The notes below the pieces were generated by a model that was given only the letters and a program-made list of their open reading frames with translations, made no database searches and was not told the DNA's origin. This document shows positions 3,028 to 35,279 of a stretch of DNA of 64,000 nt, in pieces; within the stretch, counting starts at the first letter, position 1; each line of letters opens with the position of its first letter. The translations under genes and the position numbers were made by a program. Origin of the DNA: a virus; IMG/VR virus record IMGVR_UViG_3300008107_000056, positions 1-64,000 of that record. One strand, given 5' to 3'.

Positions 3028-3054
3028 AAAAAAAGCACCTTCGGGTGCTTTTTT
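3028..3054. terminator. bidirectional intrinsic terminator
   Basis: Stem GCACC/GGTGC (3035-3039 with 3044-3048) with a TTCG tetraloop, flanked by A and T runs. It can work in both directions: it ends the + strand fibre unit and, on the - strand, follows the IscA-like gene, whose stop codon (3053-3055) touches the T run. Confidence 0.85.
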
Positions 3055-3391
3055 ATTTCCTCTGGTGCCTAACTGGACCATCTAGATTTTTATACAGCAT
3101 GAATCTAACACCATCAAAATCCAAGGTATATTCGTCTAGGATATAGGCTATGCTGGTTGCATCCATGACTATTTCAACACCAGCTATGTTTAGAATATAA
3201 TCTTCAGAAGCAAATTGATCATCCCACTCAAAGTAAATGTCTGTCTTTAGAGCCAGTATGTCACAGCGAACCCTAAACGCACCTTGTGGTTTGTTCTCTC
3301 CTAATCTTTTGATTTCTAGCACAGCACTGGGAGTAACTGTGAGGAGATTTGGTTGATTGCCCGGAAGAAGATCTACTTGACTTTTATCCAT
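3053..3391 (-). CDS. HesB/IscA-like (A-type iron-sulfur carrier fold) protein
   Basis: A 112-residue protein whose residues about 15-100 follow the HesB/IscA pattern: TVTPSAVLEIKRL, a strand with RVRCDI, FEWDD, then IAGVEIVMDATSIAYILDEYTLDF and GVRFMLYKN. Cellular A-type carriers bind Fe-S with one internal Cys and a C-terminal CxC. Here only the Cys in VRCD is present, and the chain ends in GPVRHQRK without CxC. It probably keeps the fold but not the standard cluster site. The ATG has no ribosome site; TAAATA lies exactly 5 nt upstream, so late leaderless expression is likely. Confidence 0.65.
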   Translation of the reverse strand: MDKSQVDLLPGNQPNLLTVTPSAVLEIKRLGENKPQGAFRVRCDILALKTDIYFEWDDQFASEDYILNIAGVEIVMDATSIAYILDEYTLDFDGVRFMLYKNLDGPVRHQRK

Positions 3392-3661: not shown

Positions 3662-3749
3662 AAAAGAATGTCTTTTCATTAAAAACGTAAGAATTTTCTT
3701 TTAAAAACTGCTGAAAATTTTAAAGAATTTAACGAAAAGAATATCTTTT
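3662..3749. repeat. two copies of a 15-bp palindrome
   Basis: AAAAGA-ATG-TCTTTT at 3662-3676 and AAAAGA-ATA-TCTTTT at 3735-3749 are near-identical inverted repeats 73 bp apart. The second abuts the stop codon of the nucleotidyltransferase gene. Between them the DNA is AT-rich and noncoding. They look like a pair of protein-binding sites or weak hairpins upstream of the 73-residue gene. Confidence 0.5.
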
Positions 3750-4450
3750 TATTTCAAACTCAAGTTCTTGTTAACTATGTCTATCTTCCTGTTTTGTATT
3801 CTTTCTATATCACCGTTATTTCTAAGGGCTTTGAATACTAGATTTTCTGTGCTAAGTTCGCCAAACTTATCCAAGCCAGACTGACGGTAATTTTTCAACT
3901 TATCCATTAGTTTGGTAATATCTTCTTTATCATCAGCCCTATTCAAATATCTCTTAATTTCCACGCTGAGCCAACGATATTTGGCACGTACTGCACGATC
4001 ATCATAACTGGTATCACGTTGTACATCTTTACGTTGTACCCATTCATCAGTTAATAAACTATAGGCATTGCCCTCTACAGTTTCATCGTCATCTTCTACA
4101 TATATTTCTACTGGAACACTTCGCATAGCAATATCATAGGTATTGTTCCAAAGTCTACGCTTACTGTCAAAAAATTGATCTACTAACTCATTACCGCCAT
4201 ATATTTCTTCTTTGGCTACAACAATGTGTAGATCTAAATCGCTGTGTGGAGTATAGGTATAACTGGTGTTGCTGCCTGTAATTATTATATCACGTAGGGG
4301 TATTTTGTCCAGCTTCAAATAGGCCAAAAATTCTTTAGCTGTTTCTAATAATTTTAACCTAACTTCAGCCTGTAGTTTGTCCCCGTCCCATAGTTTAGGA
4401 TTGAGACTGGTGTGAAACATTATGGGAGATTGGAACTCTAAAATCTGCAT
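3749..4450 (-). CDS. nucleotidyltransferase-fold protein (pol beta superfamily)
   Basis: A 233-residue protein with a nucleotidyltransferase signature: ITGSNTSYTYTPHSDLDLHIVV (residues about 58-78, broken here as GS at 59-60 and the metal-binding pair D71/D73), and a third acidic residue in VEIYVED (about 115). The second half is helical (RAKYRWLSVEIKRYL). The fold adds nucleotides to proteins, RNA or small molecules; the substrate cannot be told from sequence. It is transcribed divergently from the YqgE-like gene, with ATGs 31 bp apart. TAAATA lies 6 nt before the ATG and no ribosome site is present, so leaderless late expression is likely. Confidence 0.7.
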   Translation of the reverse strand: MQILEFQSPIMFHTSLNPKLWDGDKLQAEVRLKLLETAKEFLAYLKLDKIPLRDIIITGSNTSYTYTPHSDLDLHIVVAKEEIYGGNELVDQFFDSKRRLWNNTYDIAMRSVPVEIYVEDDDETVEGNAYSLLTDEWVQRKDVQRDTSYDDRAVRAKYRWLSVEIKRYLNRADDKEDITKLMDKLKNYRQSGLDKFGELSTENLVFKALRNNGDIERIQNRKIDIVNKNLSLK

Positions 4451-4456
4451 AACACA

Positions 4457-4476
4457 TATTTATTCAACGGTAAATA
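4457..4476. promoter_or_regulatory. back-to-back late-type promoters
   Basis: TAAATA on the minus strand (4457-4462) drives the nucleotidyltransferase gene and TAAATA on the plus strand (4471-4476) drives the YqgE-like gene. The whole intergenic region is only 31 bp, and the cores are 6 and 5 nt from their start codons. Confidence 0.65.
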
Positions 4477-4481
4477 CTCAT

Positions 4482-5033
4482 ATGGACACAAATTATTATA
4501 CTGGAAATTTATTAGTAGCACCGCCAAAAATGATGGATAAAAGATTCAGCAGTACGGTGGTCTACGTGGTTAATCACACGCCTTCTGGTGCGTGGGGGCT
4601 GGTGCTCAACAAACCAGGAAATCTTTCTAATAAAGAGTTATTATCACAAATTGGCATTGATCTAAATCTTTCTGGTATTGCACACGCTGGCGGTCCAATG
4701 AATACAAATAGTGTGCATTTTTTACACAGTCCAGATGTAACAAGTTCAGGAACTTTTCCTGGCAATATTTTTGCCAGTGGAGATATGGAATTTATTACTA
4801 GACTGCAAGAAGGTAACAGACCAGAAAGATATAGAATGTTTGTGGGCAGTTGTAGCTGGGCACCTGGACAATTGGAAATGGAGGTCATGGGCGAAAGTCC
4901 GTGGAGACCAGAGTTTAGTTGGCTAACAGTTCCTGCTACGCCAGAGCTTGTATTTGATTATGATGATATGTCACAATGGCAGCATTGTCTTGATGCATGT
5001 GCTAATAACGTGGTTAAAGATTGGATGGTCTAA
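4482..5033 (+). CDS. YqgE/AlgH (UPF0301) family protein
   Basis: This 183-residue protein aligns along its length with bacterial YqgE: LLVAPPKMMDKRFSSTVVYVV, GAWGLVLNKP, the GGP motif (HAGGPM), VHFLHSP, SCSWAPGQLEMEV and a C-terminal WLTVPATPELVFD. YqgE/AlgH proteins are small cytoplasmic proteins; AlgH was linked to regulation in Pseudomonas, but the biochemical function is not settled. I chose the ATG at 4482 because TAAATA lies 5 nt upstream; a longer frame from 4422 would run into the divergent gene. It ends 2 bp before the convergent gp41 gene. A late host-modulating role is an inference. Confidence 0.8.
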   Translation: MDTNYYTGNLLVAPPKMMDKRFSSTVVYVVNHTPSGAWGLVLNKPGNLSNKELLSQIGIDLNLSGIAHAGGPMNTNSVHFLHSPDVTSSGTFPGNIFASGDMEFITRLQEGNRPERYRMFVGSCSWAPGQLEMEVMGESPWRPEFSWLTVPATPELVFDYDDMSQWQHCLDACANNVVKDWMV

Positions 5034-5035
5034 AA

Positions 5036-6493
5036 TTAATCTTTTTCAGCATTAATATTAGCTAACATTTCTCTAATACGACTTCCGTCAACCTTACCTC
5101 TAACTTTTGGAACTGCTATACCTTCATCTGGTTCTCTAGCAATTTCCCCAGTTGAGCTATCTACAACTGTGCTAGTCTTTTTCAATCCATTTAAAATATT
5201 CGCTGTTCCAGAACTAGGTTGTGGTCTACCGCCACCTTGACTAAAACTAGACTCTTGAGCATCTTCACCTGGATCAGTAATACGTAAACTATCCAAGTTA
5301 AAGTCCAAATCAATCTTTTGTCCTACTGCACTACTTGAGCGTGTCTTCATAAACTGTATTTGATAACGTCCACGCTCACGCATAGCACGACTTGTAAAGA
5401 TACCAATCACGTTATCAGCTGTTTGGATTTTACTCAAACCGCCACTAATATGACTGTGATCAAATTCAATTTCTTCAACAGCACTACGGTTTAACTGTGA
5501 TGCTGTAACGCAAACACATTGTTGTTCCATAGCAAAGTTACGAATTTCTTCTGACACATATTTGTCTTTAACAAACAAATCACTAGGACTAACTTTAACA
5601 CTAACTGGCATCATCAAATCCAAATAGTCAATCAACACAACATCAGGCTTGTGTCCTTTCTTTACTTGATACTCTTTGATGTAAGCACGTAGATCATTAA
5701 TGTTCTTTCCTGATGGCATATATTTGATTTGAATAGCACCACTACTTTTACCTGCCATTTTTACTTTGAGTTCAACGTCTTCCAAACTTTTAAAAATCTC
5801 TCGGGTCGGAAGACCAGTCATCATCGAATCCAATCTCATCGCAACTAGGTGCTCGCTCAGTTCCAGTGAAACGTAAAGTACGTTGAGTCCTACCTGGGAG
5901 AAGTTCACCGCAAGATTCTGTAGAAACAGGGATTTCCCCGCACCACTGCCCCCAGCGAAAATATTCAATTCGCCCCTGTTGAACCCTCCAAAAAGTTTTT
6001 TGTCGAATGTCGGCCATCCTGTGCTCACTTGTCCATTTTTGTCTTTAAGACCCATCAAACGTCCACGAGGATCTTCAAAATAGTCTGTGCCCATATCTTT
6101 ATTAAGACTGATTTGAACTGCTGCCTTAATCATAGTTTCTACAGGCCCAAACTCTCCCTTTTCCAACATATCTGCACTCTTAATAATTGCTCTTTCTAGT
6201 GCTTTATGCCTACTGAATTTTTCAAACTCATCTAATAGCCAATCATAATTTTCAGAAGGTAATCCTGTTACATCTTTGAAATCTGTTTCACAACTTGTAT
6301 TGACTATATCCAACTCTGGCATCACTTTGTATTTGTCAACGTATACATTGATAAATTCTGCCGCATCCTTTAACTTCCTATCAAAGTTTTCTGGATCAAA
6401 AATATTTTGACAACGTACAAATGTTTCTGCATCACTCAAAAACATTTCTAAATATAATCGTTGTACTTCACTACTGTAATTTGTTTTATTCAT
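5036..6493 (-). CDS. 41: replicative DNA helicase gp41 (DnaB-type)
   Basis: Hexameric 5'-3' helicase that unwinds the fork and works with the gp61 primase as the T4-type primosome. The 485-residue length fits the family. The N-terminal helical domain (1-140) is followed by a RecA-like core: Walker A GGSGAGKS (181-188), Walker B VVLIDYLDLM (285-294) and the ASQLNRSA motif (331-338) typical of DnaB-like helicases. The C-terminal 80 residues are low in complexity. It lies downstream of gp61 and a 66-residue gene on the same strand, so it is likely transcribed from the early promoter at 7808-7836. Confidence 0.95.
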   Translation of the reverse strand: MNKTNYSSEVQRLYLEMFLSDAETFVRCQNIFDPENFDRKLKDAAEFINVYVDKYKVMPELDIVNTSCETDFKDVTGLPSENYDWLLDEFEKFSRHKALERAIIKSADMLEKGEFGPVETMIKAAVQISLNKDMGTDYFEDPRGRLMGLKDKNGQVSTGWPTFDKKLFGGFNRGELNIFAGGSGAGKSLFLQNLAVNFSQVGLNVLYVSLELSEHLVAMRLDSMMTGLPTREIFKSLEDVELKVKMAGKSSGAIQIKYMPSGKNINDLRAYIKEYQVKKGHKPDVVLIDYLDLMMPVSVKVSPSDLFVKDKYVSEEIRNFAMEQQCVCVTASQLNRSAVEEIEFDHSHISGGLSKIQTADNVIGIFTSRAMRERGRYQIQFMKTRSSSAVGQKIDLDFNLDSLRITDPGEDAQESSFSQGGGRPQPSSGTANILNGLKKTSTVVDSSTGEIAREPDEGIAVPKVRGKVDGSRIREMLANINAEKD

Positions 6494-6711: not shown

Positions 6712-7801
6712 TCTTTTTCTCCTTTGGATATTTTTTCATTAGCAATTCTAATTTTATTTTATTATCTGTAGCAGAATCTAAAATACTTTTGATCGTAAAA
6801 AGTTTACCATAACGTTTGAACGCATCACTAGCGTCTTTAATATCATCTTCCCATGGGGGTATGGCTACCAACCACTCATTCTCCATAGCATACTGTACTA
6901 ACCCCATACCAGTATGATCCCTGTCTGGAACAACAATAACTGTTTTACCTAGACTATTAATTATAGCACGTTGTCTGTCGTTGGGTAAATTAGTTAATAG
7001 TCCAACTCCATTTACTGCCAATGCATCAAAAGGTCCTTCTGTAACCAAAACTATTTTGTTTGAATAATTTTGTTTATCTATATTGAATACATAACCGCTT
7101 TGACTTTCACTCAAATATTTGGGACTACCTGAAACTACTTTTCTAGCAGTATAGCCTATGAGCTTTTTTTGATGATAAAATGGTATTATTAATCTATCAT
7201 TATATCCAGGCATGGGACAATAATGCCAGTCATAGTCATCTAAATCATGTCCTCTATCAAGCAAATATTCTAAACACCTAACACTATCATCATATTCTAA
7301 CAAAGCATTAACTAAAGGTATTGAATCAGGTGGCAGATACTTTTCATGAAAATCCAGTTGAGCCACAGCTTCAACATCATTATTGTCCAATAATTTAAGA
7401 GCTTCTAAACTCCACTCATTTATCTTACTGGAAGGAACATTTAACCATTTGAATAATTTTTTATTTTTTACACTTATTTGTCTGCCAGGATTATTGTCCA
7501 ATAATTTAAGAGCTTCTAAACTCCACTCATTTATCTTACTGGAAGGAACATTTAACCATTTGAATAATTTTTTATTTTTTACACTTATTTGTCTGCCAGG
7601 TTGCCAACTAGTCTTATAGCCGCAATTGAAACAGTGATATGTAAATCCAGACCCATGGCTAATGAATCCACCTCTTTGTCTTGTGTCAGTAGTTTCGCCA
7701 TTGTGTACACAGCAAGGTGCGTCAAAACTCATCCAACCAGAGGAAGTTTGTTTTCTTTTAAAAGGTAGATATGATAGCAGTTCAGCCTGTATGGCAGTCA
7801 T
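6701..7801 (-). CDS. 61: DNA primase gp61, with an internal tandem duplication
   Basis: Primase that makes RNA primers for the lagging strand together with gp41. The N-terminus has a zinc-binding domain (Cys30, Cys31, His33, Cys57, Cys60 in C..C..H and HCFNCG). The TOPRIM catalytic core shows TEGPFDAL (Glu256) and VPDRD (Asp294, Asp296). Between them a 37-residue segment starting PGRQISVKNKKLFKWL is present twice (about 68-104 and 105-141). Without the extra copy the protein would be about 329 residues, close to typical gp61 length. The start has no ribosome site; a sigma70-like promoter ends 6 nt before the ATG. Confidence 0.93.
   Translation of the reverse strand: MTAIQAELLSYLPFKRKQTSSGWMSFDAPCCVHNGETTDTRQRGGFISHGSGFTYHCFNCGYKTSWQPGRQISVKNKKLFKWLNVPSSKINEWSLEALKLLDNNPGRQISVKNKKLFKWLNVPSSKINEWSLEALKLLDNNDVEAVAQLDFHEKYLPPDSIPLVNALLEYDDSVRCLEYLLDRGHDLDDYDWHYCPMPGYNDRLIIPFYHQKKLIGYTARKVVSGSPKYLSESQSGYVFNIDKQNYSNKIVLVTEGPFDALAVNGVGLLTNLPNDRQRAIINSLGKTVIVVPDRDHTGMGLVQYAMENEWLVAIPPWEDDIKDASDAFKRYGKLFTIKSILDSATDNKIKLELLMKKYPKEKKNDS
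7379..7600. repeat. perfect 111-bp in-frame tandem duplication in gp61
   Basis: The units 7379-7489 and 7490-7600 are identical by eye over all 111 positions, and diverge immediately outside (7378 versus 7489, and 7490 versus 7601). The unit is 37 codons, so the frame is kept. The lack of any difference indicates either a very recent duplication or an assembly error. Confidence 0.92.
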
Positions 7802-8631: not shown

Positions 8632-9009
8632 GTGAACGAACTATTGAAAAACAATTTCCCATTCCTAACCTGCATCAGATGCAATGAGATTGAGATCGTA
8701 GGGATCATAATCAATCAAAATGACAGCGTTTTAAGCATCTACGATTTTGGGGCTATACACAACGACACTGAAAAACAGCAACTCTTAGATTTAGGGGATC
8801 AGTGGTGGTGGGAAAGCAATCGAAAGATCCCAATTAATATTTTCCTAAAAGGCGAAATGGACTTGTTTCGCAGATATATCAAAACACTGAACAGCAAGGA
8901 TATAGAGCTTGTTTTTGGTCCAGTTGTTAATTTAAATGATATATCAGAAAAAAGGGTTAAACGTAAAAGTATTCAGCTAGTTCGGTCTGTTAAGAAAACC
9001 CGTAGCTGA
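8632..9009 (+). CDS. conserved-type hypothetical protein of T4-like marine phages
   Basis: A protein of about 125 residues with the pattern FLTCIRCNEIEIVGIIINQND, LGDQWWWESNRKIPINIF and VFGPVVNLNDIS. I recall this pattern as a conserved small protein in cyanophages of the T4 type, without a known function. The start is uncertain: the frame opens at GTG 8632, with AGGA about 11 nt upstream, and no ATG is available in frame before the conserved core. The basic C-terminus (KRVKRKSIQLVRSVKKTR) could bind nucleic acid. Its end overlaps the convergent polymerase-like gene by 20 bp. It is driven by a perfect TATAAATA at 8574, so it is late. Confidence 0.65.
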   Translation: MNELLKNNFPFLTCIRCNEIEIVGIIINQNDSVLSIYDFGAIHNDTEKQQLLDLGDQWWWESNRKIPINIFLKGEMDLFRRYIKTLNSKDIELVFGPVVNLNDISEKRVKRKSIQLVRSVKKTRS

Positions 9010-9577
9010 TACCTTCACAAATTTTGTTCATTTGAACAACAATAGCGTGGGCATACGCAACTGCGTGACTCTTTTTAAAACTATAAGAATCGTCTGTCTT
9101 TTCCCATATTTCATCTTTAATACTATCCCAACCTTTTGTTTCACAAGTTGGAACTAGGTGTTTCTTACCTGGACGTAGTATTGCTAAGAACATGGCTAAT
9201 TGTTCAATGCTACGTGGCTTTAATCGTGCAATTAAATCATGATAACCATTGACGTGGAAGATTAAGTCACAAAATTCTTTTTGTTCTAATAAATCCCATA
9301 GTGGTTCAATTTTTAGTAAATTTACAATCTCTTCTTCAGATTTTATATCTTTATAGATACCAACATTTAAAAAGTCTACTTTAAAGTATCCTCTTTTTTC
9401 AGCATCATCATAATCTAAACTGGCAAGACCTGTTAATGGATCAGTTGGGACTTGATGCAAGTAGACACCAGTATTGTGTTTTTTGATTTCATCATTATCA
9501 ATTCTTGATGCAGGAATATGCTTTAACAATTTTAAAGCAATGTCTCTATCAAAAAAATCAATATCAATATCAGGCAA
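8990..9577 (-). CDS. minimal DNA polymerase III alpha (DnaE)-like protein
   Basis: A 195-residue protein that keeps, in order, motifs of bacterial Pol III alpha: PDIDIDF at 2-8 (first catalytic acidic pair), FKVDFLNV at 65-72 (like the third catalytic Asp region KFDFLGL), LAILRPGK at 131-138 and KKSHAVAYA at 168-176 (like NKSHSVAYA of the fingers). The PHP domain, most of the fingers and the beta-binding and OB regions are absent, so full polymerase activity is doubtful. It overlaps the upstream gene by 8 bp at the end of the UvsW operon. It could assist replication or recombination, or be a regulator derived from DnaE. Confidence 0.65.
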   Translation of the reverse strand: MPDIDIDFFDRDIALKLLKHIPASRIDNDEIKKHNTGVYLHQVPTDPLTGLASLDYDDAEKRGYFKVDFLNVGIYKDIKSEEEIVNLLKIEPLWDLLEQKEFCDLIFHVNGYHDLIARLKPRSIEQLAMFLAILRPGKKHLVPTCETKGWDSIKDEIWEKTDDSYSFKKSHAVAYAHAIVVQMNKICEGISYGFS

Positions 9578-17052: not shown

Positions 17053-19689
17053 TTAGATTCCGGCTAACTTTTTCAAATCAATTACTTCGCCTGTTTGTTT
17101 ATTTGATTGAGATTTTGTGCCTATTCCAGCTAATTTCTTTAAGTCGATAAAATCAGTACTTTCATTGACCTTCATAGTTTTTACTGGAGACTTATTAATA
17201 GCTACTAATGCGCTATCTCTTTTCACTTGTCCACTTAACACTTTAATATCTTCAAACATTTGTGCTTCGTGACTTTGTGAGGCTAGTTTTTGAATTAAAC
17301 GTTCTGCAAGTTGTCCTGCCTTGTCGCCAAATTCTTTTTCAACTTTAATTTTGACACCTGTTTCGCCTAATGGGAAATTGCCTGTGTTACGGTCATAAAA
17401 GCCCATAATAAATTCTGCAATTTCTTTCATTGGTGCTCCACCAGATTTTTTCTTTTCATCTGTTTGTAGTTCTTCACCTTCATCTACATCTGCACCAAAA
17501 CCTGTAGTGTCTTGTTTAATACCACCACTCTTTGCCTTATTGCGTAGATTGGAAATAAATTGTGCATCGTCATCTTCTTCACTGCCTTTAATGCCACGTA
17601 GTTCTGCATCAATGTCCGCATCGCTCATTGCTGAACGTTTTGGTGCTTCATTTGATCCAGTAATGCGACTCCATGCGGTCATTGTTTTTTCATCACTTAC
17701 ACCTAACATTGGCAATGTATTGAAGAATTCTTGTTCAACTTCTTCTGGCTGTACTTCGCCACTTTTAATTGCGCGAGCAATGTTTTGTAGATATTCCATT
17801 GCGTGACGTTTTTCTTCTGGAGTTTGATCCATATTTTCTCTTGTAATAGGTGTGTGACGATTTGGGTCAAGTATATGATCTGGTTTTTCTTTGCCTGGAT
17901 TTACCATATAATCTTGTGCGTCCTTTTCTGCTTTTTCTGCTTTTTCTTTGTCGTTGTAATATTTTCCACCAGCAGCCACACCAGCACCAGTTACACCAAG
18001 TCTTGTTACTGGATTAAAAGCAAAACTAGTAATAGCTTTATCTGCTAAGTCGCCTACTGCACTGCCTAATTTACCAACTGATTTTGTCCAATGTTCTTGT
18101 ACTTCAGATTGCTGTGATTCATGCAAACTGTCAAAAACTAATTCATGTAGTAGATCACCATGCTCGTCTCTTAACATTTCTAACTCTTCATCAGACATGT
18201 CCGACCCATCTTCAAATTGTCCGTCACTGAAATATGCATCTGAAAAATCTGGATAATCCCTAGTATCAACACCGTCAACTTGCAGACTGTTTACATCAAC
18301 TTCTTTTCCATTAATAGTGATGCCTTGTTGCATACCTTCTTGAACAGGTGTTTGTTGTACATCCAATGCGTTATAAATTTCTGGTTGGAATTTGCTTAAG
18401 AATTCCATTACAACGTCGGCTGCGTTTGCATCTGGACCTTGTTGTTCTGCCAGTTGTGCCAACTGAATTTTAGTTGCATCTGGAACATCAATGCCTAATT
18501 CTTCTAGTGTGCCTGTTACATTGTCCCCATTGAGTCCAACAGGGAAATGCTCACTTAATAATTCGCCTAATTTTGAAAGATCTTCAGGATCTAATCTAGT
18601 TTCTACTAATGTATGTGCCCAATCATAAAATACACTCTCTGGTGTTAGGGTTGCTACATCTTCTAAACTTAATTCTGGTGTTTGGTCTTCTAATTGAGCA
18701 ACTTCTTCTAAATCAATTTCATTTTCCTGCATGATACGATGTAACAATGGGAAAACTTCTGCAATGTCTTCTTTAAAACTTTTAACAGTAAATTTATCTT
18801 TATAATCTTCTAATGTGATGTCATCAATTAAAGGCATGTCACCGCTCATACCTGATTCACATTCTTGTTTAAATGCCTCATAATGATGTTGCATACTTAT
18901 TTTATTGATCTTATCTTTCAACTCTTGAAGTTTAACTTGTGCTCGTTCAACTATGTTGCTAGTTCCACTATTCATTAGGTCTTCACGGTAGACATAGTTT
19001 TTAAAGTTTGATAACTTAGCCATGTCTTCGCTCATCTGTATAATTTTTTGACCAACTGGATCATGAGGATATCCTTCATTTGCCACGTGACGTTGCATTG
19101 CCTTTGCACCAGCCAAATGTTTAAATGGATATTTGAACCTTTCTCCTGAAGCGTTTTCAATAAACAGACTTTCTAAATTTCTACTTCTTGCGCCTGGAAT
19201 TGATTCGTCTACTGGTTTGCTGTGACGAATAATTAGTTTGGTTCTTTGTAATGCTTCTAGAGGTCTATAACTAGTGCGACTAGTGCCTCTCATCATTGAT
19301 TCACTCATAACAGGTCCTTTATTGGCCAAATAGCCATAATCTCTTTTATCTAAATTTGTTTTGCTGATATCTCTAGTATCAAAGCTCATTAATCTTTTCA
19401 TGGCAAATTTTCTCATTTCTCTTAGGAAAGAATACCAAGTTTTAGAAGTTAACTCGTCAGCATCTTCTAATATGTTCTTGTTAAAATATAATTTTAAGCT
19501 GCCTGGCTCGTTGATGCTAATGCTAACTGTGCCTAAATTGCTTTCATTAAAAATTGCGTCAAAATCAAAGAATCTGCCCTTGGCAGCTTCAAATGTGGAC
19601 TGCCCGCTCTCATCGCCCATCTCCATTTTAGGGAATCGGCTACGTATCTTATAGAACAGGTCTTGGGCAATAATATCTTGATTAATCAT
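17053..19689 (-). CDS. large head- or virion-associated protein with C-terminal LAG motifs
   Basis: An 878-residue protein of unknown function. Residues 1-120 form a globular start (SRFPKMEMGDESGQSTF.., SFLREMRKFAMKRLMSFDTRD); the middle is acidic and helical; residues about 555-580 contain a Gly/Ala-rich weakly hydrophobic stretch (VTRLGVTGAGVAAGG); then comes a long charged low-complexity part. The C-terminus carries two copies of a DLKKLAGI motif, which also ends the scaffold gp22. I infer a protein packaged in or assembled on the prohead. It lies downstream of gp17, starts 5 nt after a TAAATA core with no ribosome site, and ends before a terminator. Confidence 0.75.
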   Translation of the reverse strand: MINQDIIAQDLFYKIRSRFPKMEMGDESGQSTFEAAKGRFFDFDAIFNESNLGTVSISINEPGSLKLYFNKNILEDADELTSKTWYSFLREMRKFAMKRLMSFDTRDISKTNLDKRDYGYLANKGPVMSESMMRGTSRTSYRPLEALQRTKLIIRHSKPVDESIPGARSRNLESLFIENASGERFKYPFKHLAGAKAMQRHVANEGYPHDPVGQKIIQMSEDMAKLSNFKNYVYREDLMNSGTSNIVERAQVKLQELKDKINKISMQHHYEAFKQECESGMSGDMPLIDDITLEDYKDKFTVKSFKEDIAEVFPLLHRIMQENEIDLEEVAQLEDQTPELSLEDVATLTPESVFYDWAHTLVETRLDPEDLSKLGELLSEHFPVGLNGDNVTGTLEELGIDVPDATKIQLAQLAEQQGPDANAADVVMEFLSKFQPEIYNALDVQQTPVQEGMQQGITINGKEVDVNSLQVDGVDTRDYPDFSDAYFSDGQFEDGSDMSDEELEMLRDEHGDLLHELVFDSLHESQQSEVQEHWTKSVGKLGSAVGDLADKAITSFAFNPVTRLGVTGAGVAAGGKYYNDKEKAEKAEKDAQDYMVNPGKEKPDHILDPNRHTPITRENMDQTPEEKRHAMEYLQNIARAIKSGEVQPEEVEQEFFNTLPMLGVSDEKTMTAWSRITGSNEAPKRSAMSDADIDAELRGIKGSEEDDDAQFISNLRNKAKSGGIKQDTTGFGADVDEGEELQTDEKKKSGGAPMKEIAEFIMGFYDRNTGNFPLGETGVKIKVEKEFGDKAGQLAERLIQKLASQSHEAQMFEDIKVLSGQVKRDSALVAINKSPVKTMKVNESTDFIDLKKLAGIGTKSQSNKQTGEVIDLKKLAGI

Positions 19690-34490: not shown

Positions 34491-35279
34491 TTAACCGGTT
34501 ACCCAGGTATAACCGCCCCAACCTTGACCACCAACTCCTGAAGGATCACCTTTTTTCAGTTCTTCTTCAAGTTCTTTCATCCTTGTAAGACCTTCAGATT
34601 TAAGTGCGCCACCGTTTAGTTGTGTGCCACCCTGTGGACTGGCTATTTGTGCAAATTTTTCACGGGCTTCGCCTAGCATGACTTTGCATCCAGCTAGTGT
34701 ATATTCTTTAATCCATATACCTGCATAAGGGTCTTCTAAAAATGCAAAGTCTGGACGGTGATTATATACCCAAAGAAGTAGTCGTTCATTGCTTTGTGGG
34801 CGTTGTTGTATTGTCAGTTTACGTGTCTGTGGGTTGTAGGTAAAGTTAATGTAGCTACCAAACATTTTACCCACTAATTTTTGATATCCTGCAAACATGT
34901 AGTAAGTTGCTAAACCGCCCATATTTGAGCTTGTAAGCAAATATGTGTTGGTGTAGGCCAAATTGAATGGTTCAAACAACGTTCCACCATCCCCGCCCCC
35001 TGTTCTTGAACCAATGCTTCTACGGAAGATTTCACGCACCACTGTGATTTCTCTTGGTAGAATATATTCGTTCTGATTTTGTACCATATCTAAGAAACAA
35101 TAACTTTCTTCAACGGCATTACTGGCTCTTTGACGATAAATTGCCATGGCTTTTTCTAACGCTGTTTCGTAGTGTATTGGGTCTAACTCAACATCAATCA
35201 TGCCGTCGCCCAAGAAGGCTTTGACGTATGAGAATACTTTTTCTTTTTCGGTTTTTAGGGCGTCTAGTTGGTCACTCAT
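34491..35279 (-). CDS. 13: neck protein gp13
   Basis: Head completion/neck protein that joins head and tail with gp14. The 262-residue protein has the pattern of marine gp13: VELDPIHYETALEKAMAIYRQ, SYCFLDMVQNQNEYILPRE, IREIFRRS, a C-terminal LLLWVYNHRPDFAFLEDPYAGIWIKEY (in part) and FAQIASPQGGTQLNG. I chose the ATG at 35279 because TAAATA lies exactly 5 nt upstream; a frame open to 35357 would cover the divergent gp14 promoter. It lies divergent from gp14-gp15, unlike T4, where 13-14-15 are in one direction. Confidence 0.8.
   Translation of the reverse strand: MSDQLDALKTEKEKVFSYVKAFLGDGMIDVELDPIHYETALEKAMAIYRQRASNAVEESYCFLDMVQNQNEYILPREITVVREIFRRSIGSRTGGGDGGTLFEPFNLAYTNTYLLTSSNMGGLATYYMFAGYQKLVGKMFGSYINFTYNPQTRKLTIQQRPQSNERLLLWVYNHRPDFAFLEDPYAGIWIKEYTLAGCKVMLGEAREKFAQIASPQGGTQLNGGALKSEGLTRMKELEEELKKGDPSGVGGQGWGGYTWVTG

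Follow-up and report, generated by a model that had tools for sequence, protein, structure and literature searches.

A phage YqgE/AlgH-family gene head-to-head with a Pol-beta-type nucleotidyltransferase gene across two putative leaderless late promoters

The stretch of viral DNA analysed here (64,000 nucleotides (nt), positions 1 to 64,000 of IMG/VR record IMGVR_UViG_3300008107_000056; hereafter the window) comes from a virus record of 66.7 kb with a GC content of 38%, and it encodes a protein of the YqgE/AlgH family, a family of unsettled function whose gene yqgE was still called a gene of unknown function in 2025 (PMC12075407). In the phage lineage concerned this gene usually stands head-to-head with a gene for a Pol-beta-type nucleotidyltransferase and tail-to-tail with the gene for a DnaB helicase, and the pair recurs and is conserved, so that it is no peculiarity of one contig. 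The explanation that we favour, and regard as fairly probable as a whole, is that of a conserved divergent late-gene pair, in which YqgE would be a late helper, the outputs of the two genes would be linked and the nucleotidyltransferase would have a separate target. The features concerned are as follows (aa, amino acids):

3749..4450, minus strand: Pol-beta-type nucleotidyltransferase, 233 aa, with a C-terminal helical domain (phrog_36119, E 1.1e-47, a family annotated as of unknown function)
4451..4481, no strand: divergent intergenic region of 31 bp with two back-to-back putative late-type -10 elements, read from the sequence and with the same layout in relatives
4457..4462, minus strand: TAAATA element of the nucleotidyltransferase, 6 nt before its ATG
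4471..4476, plus strand: TAAATA element of YqgE, 5 nt before its ATG, the predicted transcription start being the A of the ATG
4482..5033, plus strand: YqgE/AlgH (DUF179, PF02622) protein, 183 aa, recognized by its PF02622 match, AlgH fold, conserved N-terminus and promoter spacing
5036..6493, minus strand: DnaB-like replicative helicase (phrog_19, E 3.2e-79, DnaB_C), convergent to YqgE at a distance of 2 bp and used as the anchor for relatives

Comparison of the YqgE open reading frame (ORF) with PF02622 recovered a match of 112.1 bits (cut-off 27, E 3.2e-32) that spans positions 1-155 of the 157 of the profile, and 35 of 35 aligned phage members matched the same profile at E <= 0.01. The window protein also matches eight distinct solved AlgH-family sequences, and an AlphaFold model built from the 35 phage sequences (mean pLDDT 94.3) aligned with 2ew0 at a Z-score of 23.0 (rmsd 2.4, 169 residues aligned) and with the eight solved family members at Z 12.6-23.0, the top row from outside the family reaching Z 3.8. 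The profile match and the AlgH-fold model thus bear out the original prediction of a phage-encoded YqgE/AlgH protein. Its start had been placed at 4448, which falls inside the start codon of the neighboring nucleotidyltransferase gene and was rejected; the longest possible ORF begins at 4422, and a start there was likewise rejected, as it would add 20 residues ahead of the conserved N-terminus. Judging from the N-terminus conserved among relatives and from the promoter spacing, the start is the ATG at 4482 (the stop codon being 5031-5033), so that the earlier start coordinate needed correction while the 31-bp gap to the neighbor stood.

The divergent neighbor had been described as a Pol-beta-type nucleotidyltransferase, and this description held. 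The window protein scores 20.3 bits against the Pfam model NTP_transf_2, just under the cut-off of 21; this model is matched at E <= 0.1 by 24 of the 30 aligned members (best 8.7e-06). A GS-x10-DLD motif is present in the window protein, with G59, D71 and D73 invariant in 30 rows and residue 60 being S in the window protein, with some rows having G; we take G[SG] together with DxD to be the catalytic motif of the Pol-beta nucleotidyltransferase superfamily. The structural model (pLDDT 91.5) has a Pol-beta (NTase) palm followed by a C-terminal helical domain. Its top Foldseek match is the spectinomycin adenyltransferase AAD(9), at E 5.8e-4 and a TM-score of only 0.29, and its top match in VIA-align is the minimal nucleotidyltransferase 2rff at Z 7.0, with FAM46/TENT5 and AadA within one Z unit; as matches of this level may reflect only a common arrangement, the structure match lists were not used to exclude families. 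A defense or toxin-antitoxin pair was considered and set aside: a PADLOC scan of four proteins gave weak PDC-S09 matches for two nucleotidyltransferases (best E 1e-4, in locus L040), a weaker PDC-M14B match and none for YqgE, and the MntA antitoxin model scored 14.9 bits against the nucleotidyltransferase (cut-off 60).

The conservation of the arrangement was assessed in two sets of viral loci. The first comprises 80 loci fetched by means of the neighboring DnaB helicase, with no requirement for YqgE; they are the best of at least 594 qualifying stretches and are hence biased towards helicases like that of the window, and they include near-identical contigs (e.g. L015/L016, L019/L020, L051/L052/L056 and L083/L084), a greedy redundancy pick retaining 52 of 65 YqgEs at less than 75% identity. 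Local BLAST identity among the phage YqgEs falls to 22%, with a median of 35.5% (self-pairs counted). YqgE is present in 70 of the 80 loci, and in 60 of these 70 the helicase lies within 200 nt of it; the ten loci without YqgE extend less than 160 nt beyond the helicase in four cases, 576-626 nt in three (one of which, L067, has the nucleotidyltransferase) and more than 1.4 kb in three. Where there was room upstream of YqgE, a nucleotidyltransferase was divergently adjacent in 54 of 67 loci. In two of the remaining 13, L079 and L057, it lies 0.6 and 1.9 kb away, with other genes in between and each gene keeping its own TAAATA element, and in the other 11 it is lacking from the stretch; for 10 of the 11 the search was extended to the full contig (fragments of 5-51 kb) and gave no match. 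The second set was obtained with two YqgE alignments as query, which yielded 127 loci, 63 of them new after removal of 46 already in the first set and 18 repeats (exact 200-nt match). All 63 have the helicase beside YqgE (within 2.2 kb), 50 of the 58 with at least 300 nt upstream have the adjacent nucleotidyltransferase, and the promoter motif is found in 60 of 61. The pair thus passed the check, proposed with the original prediction, of staying together in other phages. The next two window genes past the nucleotidyltransferase occur in only 2 and 4 of the 80 loci, some of which are too short to reach them.

Some loci carry further genes in this region. In a YqgE subclade without the nucleotidyltransferase (L077, L083 and L089) a co-directional gene of about 255 aa precedes YqgE, which keeps its own TAAATA start; the product is nitrilase-like in L089 (CN_hydrolase, 25.1 bits, cut-off 23.2), has no Pfam match in L077 and L083, and scores 32.4 bits against the NAD synthase model (cut-off 479) in L077. 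In L002 (4055-5206) and L004 (6441-7661) a gene of 380-400 aa without a Pfam match separates YqgE from the helicase and has the same orientation as YqgE.

The 31-bp region between the two genes holds two TAAATA elements eight bases apart and pointing away from each other. Among the relatives such an element lies 4-10 nt before the YqgE ATG in 65 of 70 cases, exactly 5 nt in 42 of them, and 4-9 nt before the ATG of the nucleotidyltransferase in 57 of 57, with 48 at 6-7 nt and a mode of 7; none of these 122 starts (65 and 57) has a Shine-Dalgarno core upstream. The window contains TAAATA 35 times on both strands, with 19 matches within 0-39 nt of an ATG and eight at exactly five bases, each of these eight ATGs opening an ORF of no fewer than 60 aa; in 200 dinucleotide shuffles the TAAATA-N5-ATG string was counted 1.8 times on average and never more than 6 times. 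When TAAATA-to-ATG distances were tallied over the 80 loci for ORF-opening ATGs, 5 nt was the commonest (116 cases, with 49 at 6 and 44 at 7). At that distance five of seven control hexamers have 0-9 cases, and the other two, AAATAT with 42 and AATATA with 45, overlap the TAAATA element when T or TA comes next. A Shine-Dalgarno core precedes 0.5% of the 205 ORFs of at least 100 aa in these loci with TAAATA at 4-7 nt (a class that takes in YqgE and the nucleotidyltransferase), 21% of the 109 with TAAATA farther away and 30.5% of the 622 with none; in the window, counting ORFs from 80 aa upwards, the corresponding figures are 1 of 9, 8 of 8 and 18 of 33.

Further starts of this kind in the window are:

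60352, 35279, 29396, 21279, 19689, 8599 and 3391, minus strand: TAAATA 5 nt before the ATG, read from the sequence
35320, plus strand: TAAATA 7 nt before the ATG, read from the sequence

They include the terminase (21279), a virion protein (19689), a tail-tube-like protein (29396) and the neck adaptor (35279), and since these genes share the five-base spacing it would mark a late class; taken together, leaderless late genes seem to form a class that extends over the genome. Late, leaderless expression, which the original prediction proposed for YqgE, is the best reading of the promoter sequences for both genes and is supported by them together with the same spacing at the structural and packaging genes just named. 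The tiny shared promoter region that had been pointed out is indeed present and is not unique to the pair, since the starts at 35279 and 35320 form a second divergent leaderless pair in the window; the layout by itself hence does not prove that the two act jointly. Of the divergent leaderless pairs spaced at most 80 nt apart in the 80 loci, YqgE is a member of 40 and absent from 4. By eye, T-run terminator-like hairpins were also seen directly upstream of the TAAATA elements of 29396 and 60352, both on the minus strand.

These observations suggest how the pair might work. We take the +1 position of a T4 late promoter to be six bases after TAAATA, which here would be the A of the YqgE ATG. A gp55-type late sigma factor, acting with the host RNA polymerase, would start each transcript at the AUG or 1-2 nt before it, and both mRNAs would be leaderless or nearly so. 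The two promoters would fall within one polymerase footprint, leaving one usable at a time, and as overlapping promoters should not both hold polymerase the outputs of the two genes would be linked. YqgE would then act late as a second, phage-owned copy of the host YqgE, and of the functions considered we tentatively rank first that of a late helper, which might most plausibly support the envelope and redox homeostasis of the cell until programmed lysis. The nucleotidyltransferase, in turn, may move a nucleotide onto a separate small-molecule, RNA or protein target, such that the two proteins would have timing and a promoter region in common and not necessarily a pathway. As regards the proposed factor, gp55-type sigmas were detected in 4 of 4 searched relatives of 129-355 kb (E 2.4e-25 to 6.6e-27), as well as in PA5oct and S-CRM01. 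As regards the helper role, E. coli yqgE in multicopy is reported as one of ten further genes that ease the toxicity of L-like single-gene lysis proteins (PMC10229422), an algH mutant of P. aeruginosa is reported to be HOCl-sensitive (PMC7950407), and a plant DUF179 protein to be enriched with a ClpC1 trap (PMC8889267).

Several results weigh against this interpretation. A gp55 homolog was not found in five searched relatives of 37-90 kb, and the 66.7-kb contig of the window itself gave only a match of 41 residues (18943-19065) inside an 878-aa virion-like protein (E 5e-5 with PHROGs, 3e-7 in the genome search), which is probably due to chance. The gp45 clamp (PF02916) had no match anywhere searched, not even in S-CRM01, which makes this search uninformative. 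Five YqgE loci depart from the promoter spacing; two of these are cut by contig ends, and three are real exceptions, L055 and L062 being without TAAATA and L072 having another spacing. Control hexamers peak at other distances (ATTAAA with 33 cases at 7 nt, TATAAA with 31 at 3 and AAATAT with 64 at 27), and hence shared ancestry and overlap inflate counts in related contigs. The contrast in Shine-Dalgarno cores is partly forced, because TAAATA itself fills part of the scanned region, and one of the nine leaderless-like window starts, that of 34491-35279, does have such a core. None of the seven NCBIfam YqgE equivalog models (PRK00228) reached its cut-off with the window protein (best 96.6 bits, cut-off 216), and we accordingly speak of a family member and not of an equivalog of the cellular protein. 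Finally, the lysis-suppression result concerns the cellular YqgE in E. coli, and its authors hold indirect effects to be the simplest explanation (PMC10229422).

The phage YqgEs are well separated from the sampled bacterial ones. Of 80 genomes sampled from the E. coli phylum, 79 have YqgE, and in an unrooted tree of 66 phage YqgEs and the 30 best-scoring of these 79, all from this one phylum (Pseudomonadota), a single branch with support of 100/100 splits the phage from the bacterial sequences. Core residues common to the bacterial family are kept, with P15, N43, G70-G71, H82, G122 and W147 in 66 of 66 phage rows and W126 in 94%. D85 is present in all 66 phage rows and in 23% of the 30 bacterial rows, and with W86 (83% of phage rows) forms an HSxDW-type motif, while a cysteine at window position 30 occurs in all 30 sampled bacterial rows versus 3% of the phage rows. 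A role of this cysteine as a redox switch was entertained and dropped, because P. aeruginosa AlgH carries V at the position. Recent capture of a host gene is rejected as far as tested, given that all phage YqgEs fall on one side of the 100/100 branch and that one scan of genome contigs with the window protein confirmed no relative.

In a tblastn search of 50,697 phage records the window YqgE was found in 5, namely a Salmonella chromosome contig with the gene order gshB-yqgE-yqgF, two Acinetobacter 'phage' assemblies of 220 kb with an annotated yqgE, which may be bacterial DNA, and two unannotated fecal scaffolds. The nucleotidyltransferase was found in 45 records, from cyanophages, Prevotella Lak phages, Maribacter phages, uncultured huge phages, a marine single-cell virus and Caulobacter phage Cr30. 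In S-CRM01 and Cr30 it is adjoined by other genes, and profile searches recovered from these two phages only the nucleotidyltransferase, without YqgE; the same searches of PA5oct and Phosso gave neither protein. Since these and other phages carry the nucleotidyltransferase without YqgE, it does not need YqgE. Among the literature matches listed for YqgE, AlgH and DUF179, which were swamped by surnames and longer DUF numbers, no title dealt with a phage YqgE, and the portions of the cited literature at hand describe no test on a phage protein of this family; PMC12370623 describes yqgE as an MFS transporter, which seems to be a confusion of names, and this account was set aside.

Other readings of the adjacency have to be set beside the late helper with a partner of separate target. 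The pair might be kept only by promoter overlap, a break between the genes damaging one of the promoters, with no shared function at all, and we give this about an even chance. It would account for most relatives having both TAAATA elements inside some 30 bp and for the insertion cases L057 and L079, in which each gene has a separate element, and it is in keeping with the conservation of the helicase-YqgE junction (200 nt or less in 60 of 70) and of further gene pairs in the region; it leaves unexplained why this pair above others kept the layout over such divergence (40 pairs versus 4). That same preponderance of the pair among divergent leaderless pairs, the finding of both genes side by side in 54 of 67 loci of one set and 50 of 58 of the other when the next two window genes recur in 2 and 4 of 80, and a distant likeness of the nucleotidyltransferase to MNT-type protein adenylyltransferases, seen in the structure matches and in the subthreshold MntA score, would fit the idea that the two proteins cooperate, the nucleotidyltransferase adding a nucleotide to YqgE, to its host partner or to a shared host factor. 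We consider cooperation rather unlikely, as the nucleotidyltransferase is widespread among cyanophages and huge phages, those of the Lak group included, is found in S-CRM01 and Cr30 without YqgE, and is missing from the stretch in 11 of 67 YqgE loci, in 10 of which the whole contig lacks it too. The joint role that the original prediction envisaged, for example in modifying a host factor, is thus not supported as stated, given 45 phage records with the nucleotidyltransferase versus 5 with YqgE and 13 of 67 loci without an adjacent partner.

A distinctly doubtful proposal has the phage YqgE working not as a helper but against the YqgE pathway of the host, as its antagonist or decoy (e.g. of YqgF or Clp-type proteolysis). 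The invariant D85 of the phage clade, its near-complete lack of the cysteine and the ClpC1-trap enrichment of the plant DUF179 protein (PMC8889267) could be cited for it; yet the cysteine is not universal even in cellular members, P. aeruginosa AlgH having V, and the retention of the family core residues suggests that the phage YqgE is a working protein. Still less probable in our estimation is a two-gene takeover module, wherein a bidirectional, mutually exclusive, leaderless late promoter of about 30 bp would fix the ratio of YqgE to nucleotidyltransferase and the latter would nucleotidylate YqgE or its host partner; if true, it would offer a mechanism for the widespread YqgE family and would establish T4-type late promoters with the AUG at +1 as a class of leaderless late genes. 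The genes might, lastly, not be leaderless, their transcripts starting upstream and TAAATA-N5-ATG being an AT-rich coincidence. The AT-rich genome and the modest excess over shuffles in the window alone (8 versus a maximum of 6 in 200) would allow this, but the sharp distance peak and the conservation over deep divergence make it very improbable.

With regard to its lineage, the window has several T4-type genes, encoding the DnaB helicase, a UvsY-like protein, the major head protein, a gp15-like tail sheath stabilizer and the terminase, and the nearest annotated phages by terminase are jumbo phages of the PA5oct group, at 53% identity. The lineage is one of mostly uncultured T4-like phages, some of them jumbo-sized, the contigs that carry relatives extending to 355 kb in the helicase-fetched and 332 kb in the YqgE-fetched set. 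Elsewhere in the window, a primase-like gene contains an exact 111-bp tandem duplication (7379-7489 and 7490-7600), which is recent or an assembly artifact, since the product has 366 aa here and 329 aa in the close relatives L002, L003 and L004. The minus-strand ORF at 8990-9577 may encode part of a DNA polymerase III alpha-type protein (DNA_pol3_finger, weak at 16.0 bits, cut-off 22), and a small protein at 3053-3391, also on the minus strand, gives a sub-threshold match to Fe-S_biosyn (17.0 bits, cut-off 26.3), has its own TAAATA-N5-ATG start and has homologs in 4 of the 80 loci.

That a phage lineage keeps its own divergent YqgE, nearly always by the helicase gene and under a promoter of the structural-gene type, suggests importance of the protein late in infection, and the phage YqgE offers a genetic handle on a family of unsettled function. 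Should the promoter layout be confirmed, T4-type late transcription and leaderless translation would be coupled in a broad group of phages.

The proposed promoters are reminiscent of the late promoters of T4 (gp55/gp33/gp45), with which they share the TATA-type -10 box, a gp55 homolog being present in the four large relatives. The T4 late promoter is described as an 8-bp TATA box about one helical turn before the start, with no -35 element and an AT-rich downstream region, and variants at -13/-12 are reported for the late promoters of Aeh1 (PMC2988020). The phage pair differs from T4 in keeping only the TAAATA core and not the full TATAAATA, in having the start codon at the predicted transcription start and in having two promoters back to back. 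An ATAAATA motif similar to the element here is reported upstream of structural genes in the jumbo phages CBB and GAP32, where it is predicted to be late (35 places in CBB) and where a gp55-like factor was detected and gp33 and gp45 were not; leaderless spacing is not mentioned for these phages in the available portion of that account, whose text does not contain the term 'leader' (PMC5259590). Phage transcripts in general are reported to be often leaderless (PMC5312081), and among the literature matches listed there was no paper on leaderless T4-type late promoters. The nucleotidyltransferase has the Pol-beta palm with DxD of the aminoglycoside nucleotidyltransferases AAD(9) and AadA and of the minimal nucleotidyltransferases, and AAD(9) was aligned with it over the whole length by Foldseek; it differs from them at a full-length TM-score of about 0.3 and Z of at most 7.0. 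In sequence family, fold and core residues the phage YqgE resembles cellular YqgE/AlgH (PF02622, UPF0301; E. coli YqgE and P. aeruginosa AlgH), from which it is set apart by its separate 100/100 branch, the HSxDW-type motif, scores below the equivalog cut-offs and a late-type phage promoter, as well as by its neighbors, helicase and nucleotidyltransferase in place of the gshB and yqgF of the cellular context in Salmonella. A phage YqgE is already present in public data, in the form of the COG1678 protein A0A6J7WKK4 (BFVD, 'uncultured Caudovirales phage'), which has the same fold and length as the window YqgE (TM-score 0.90, 36% identity).

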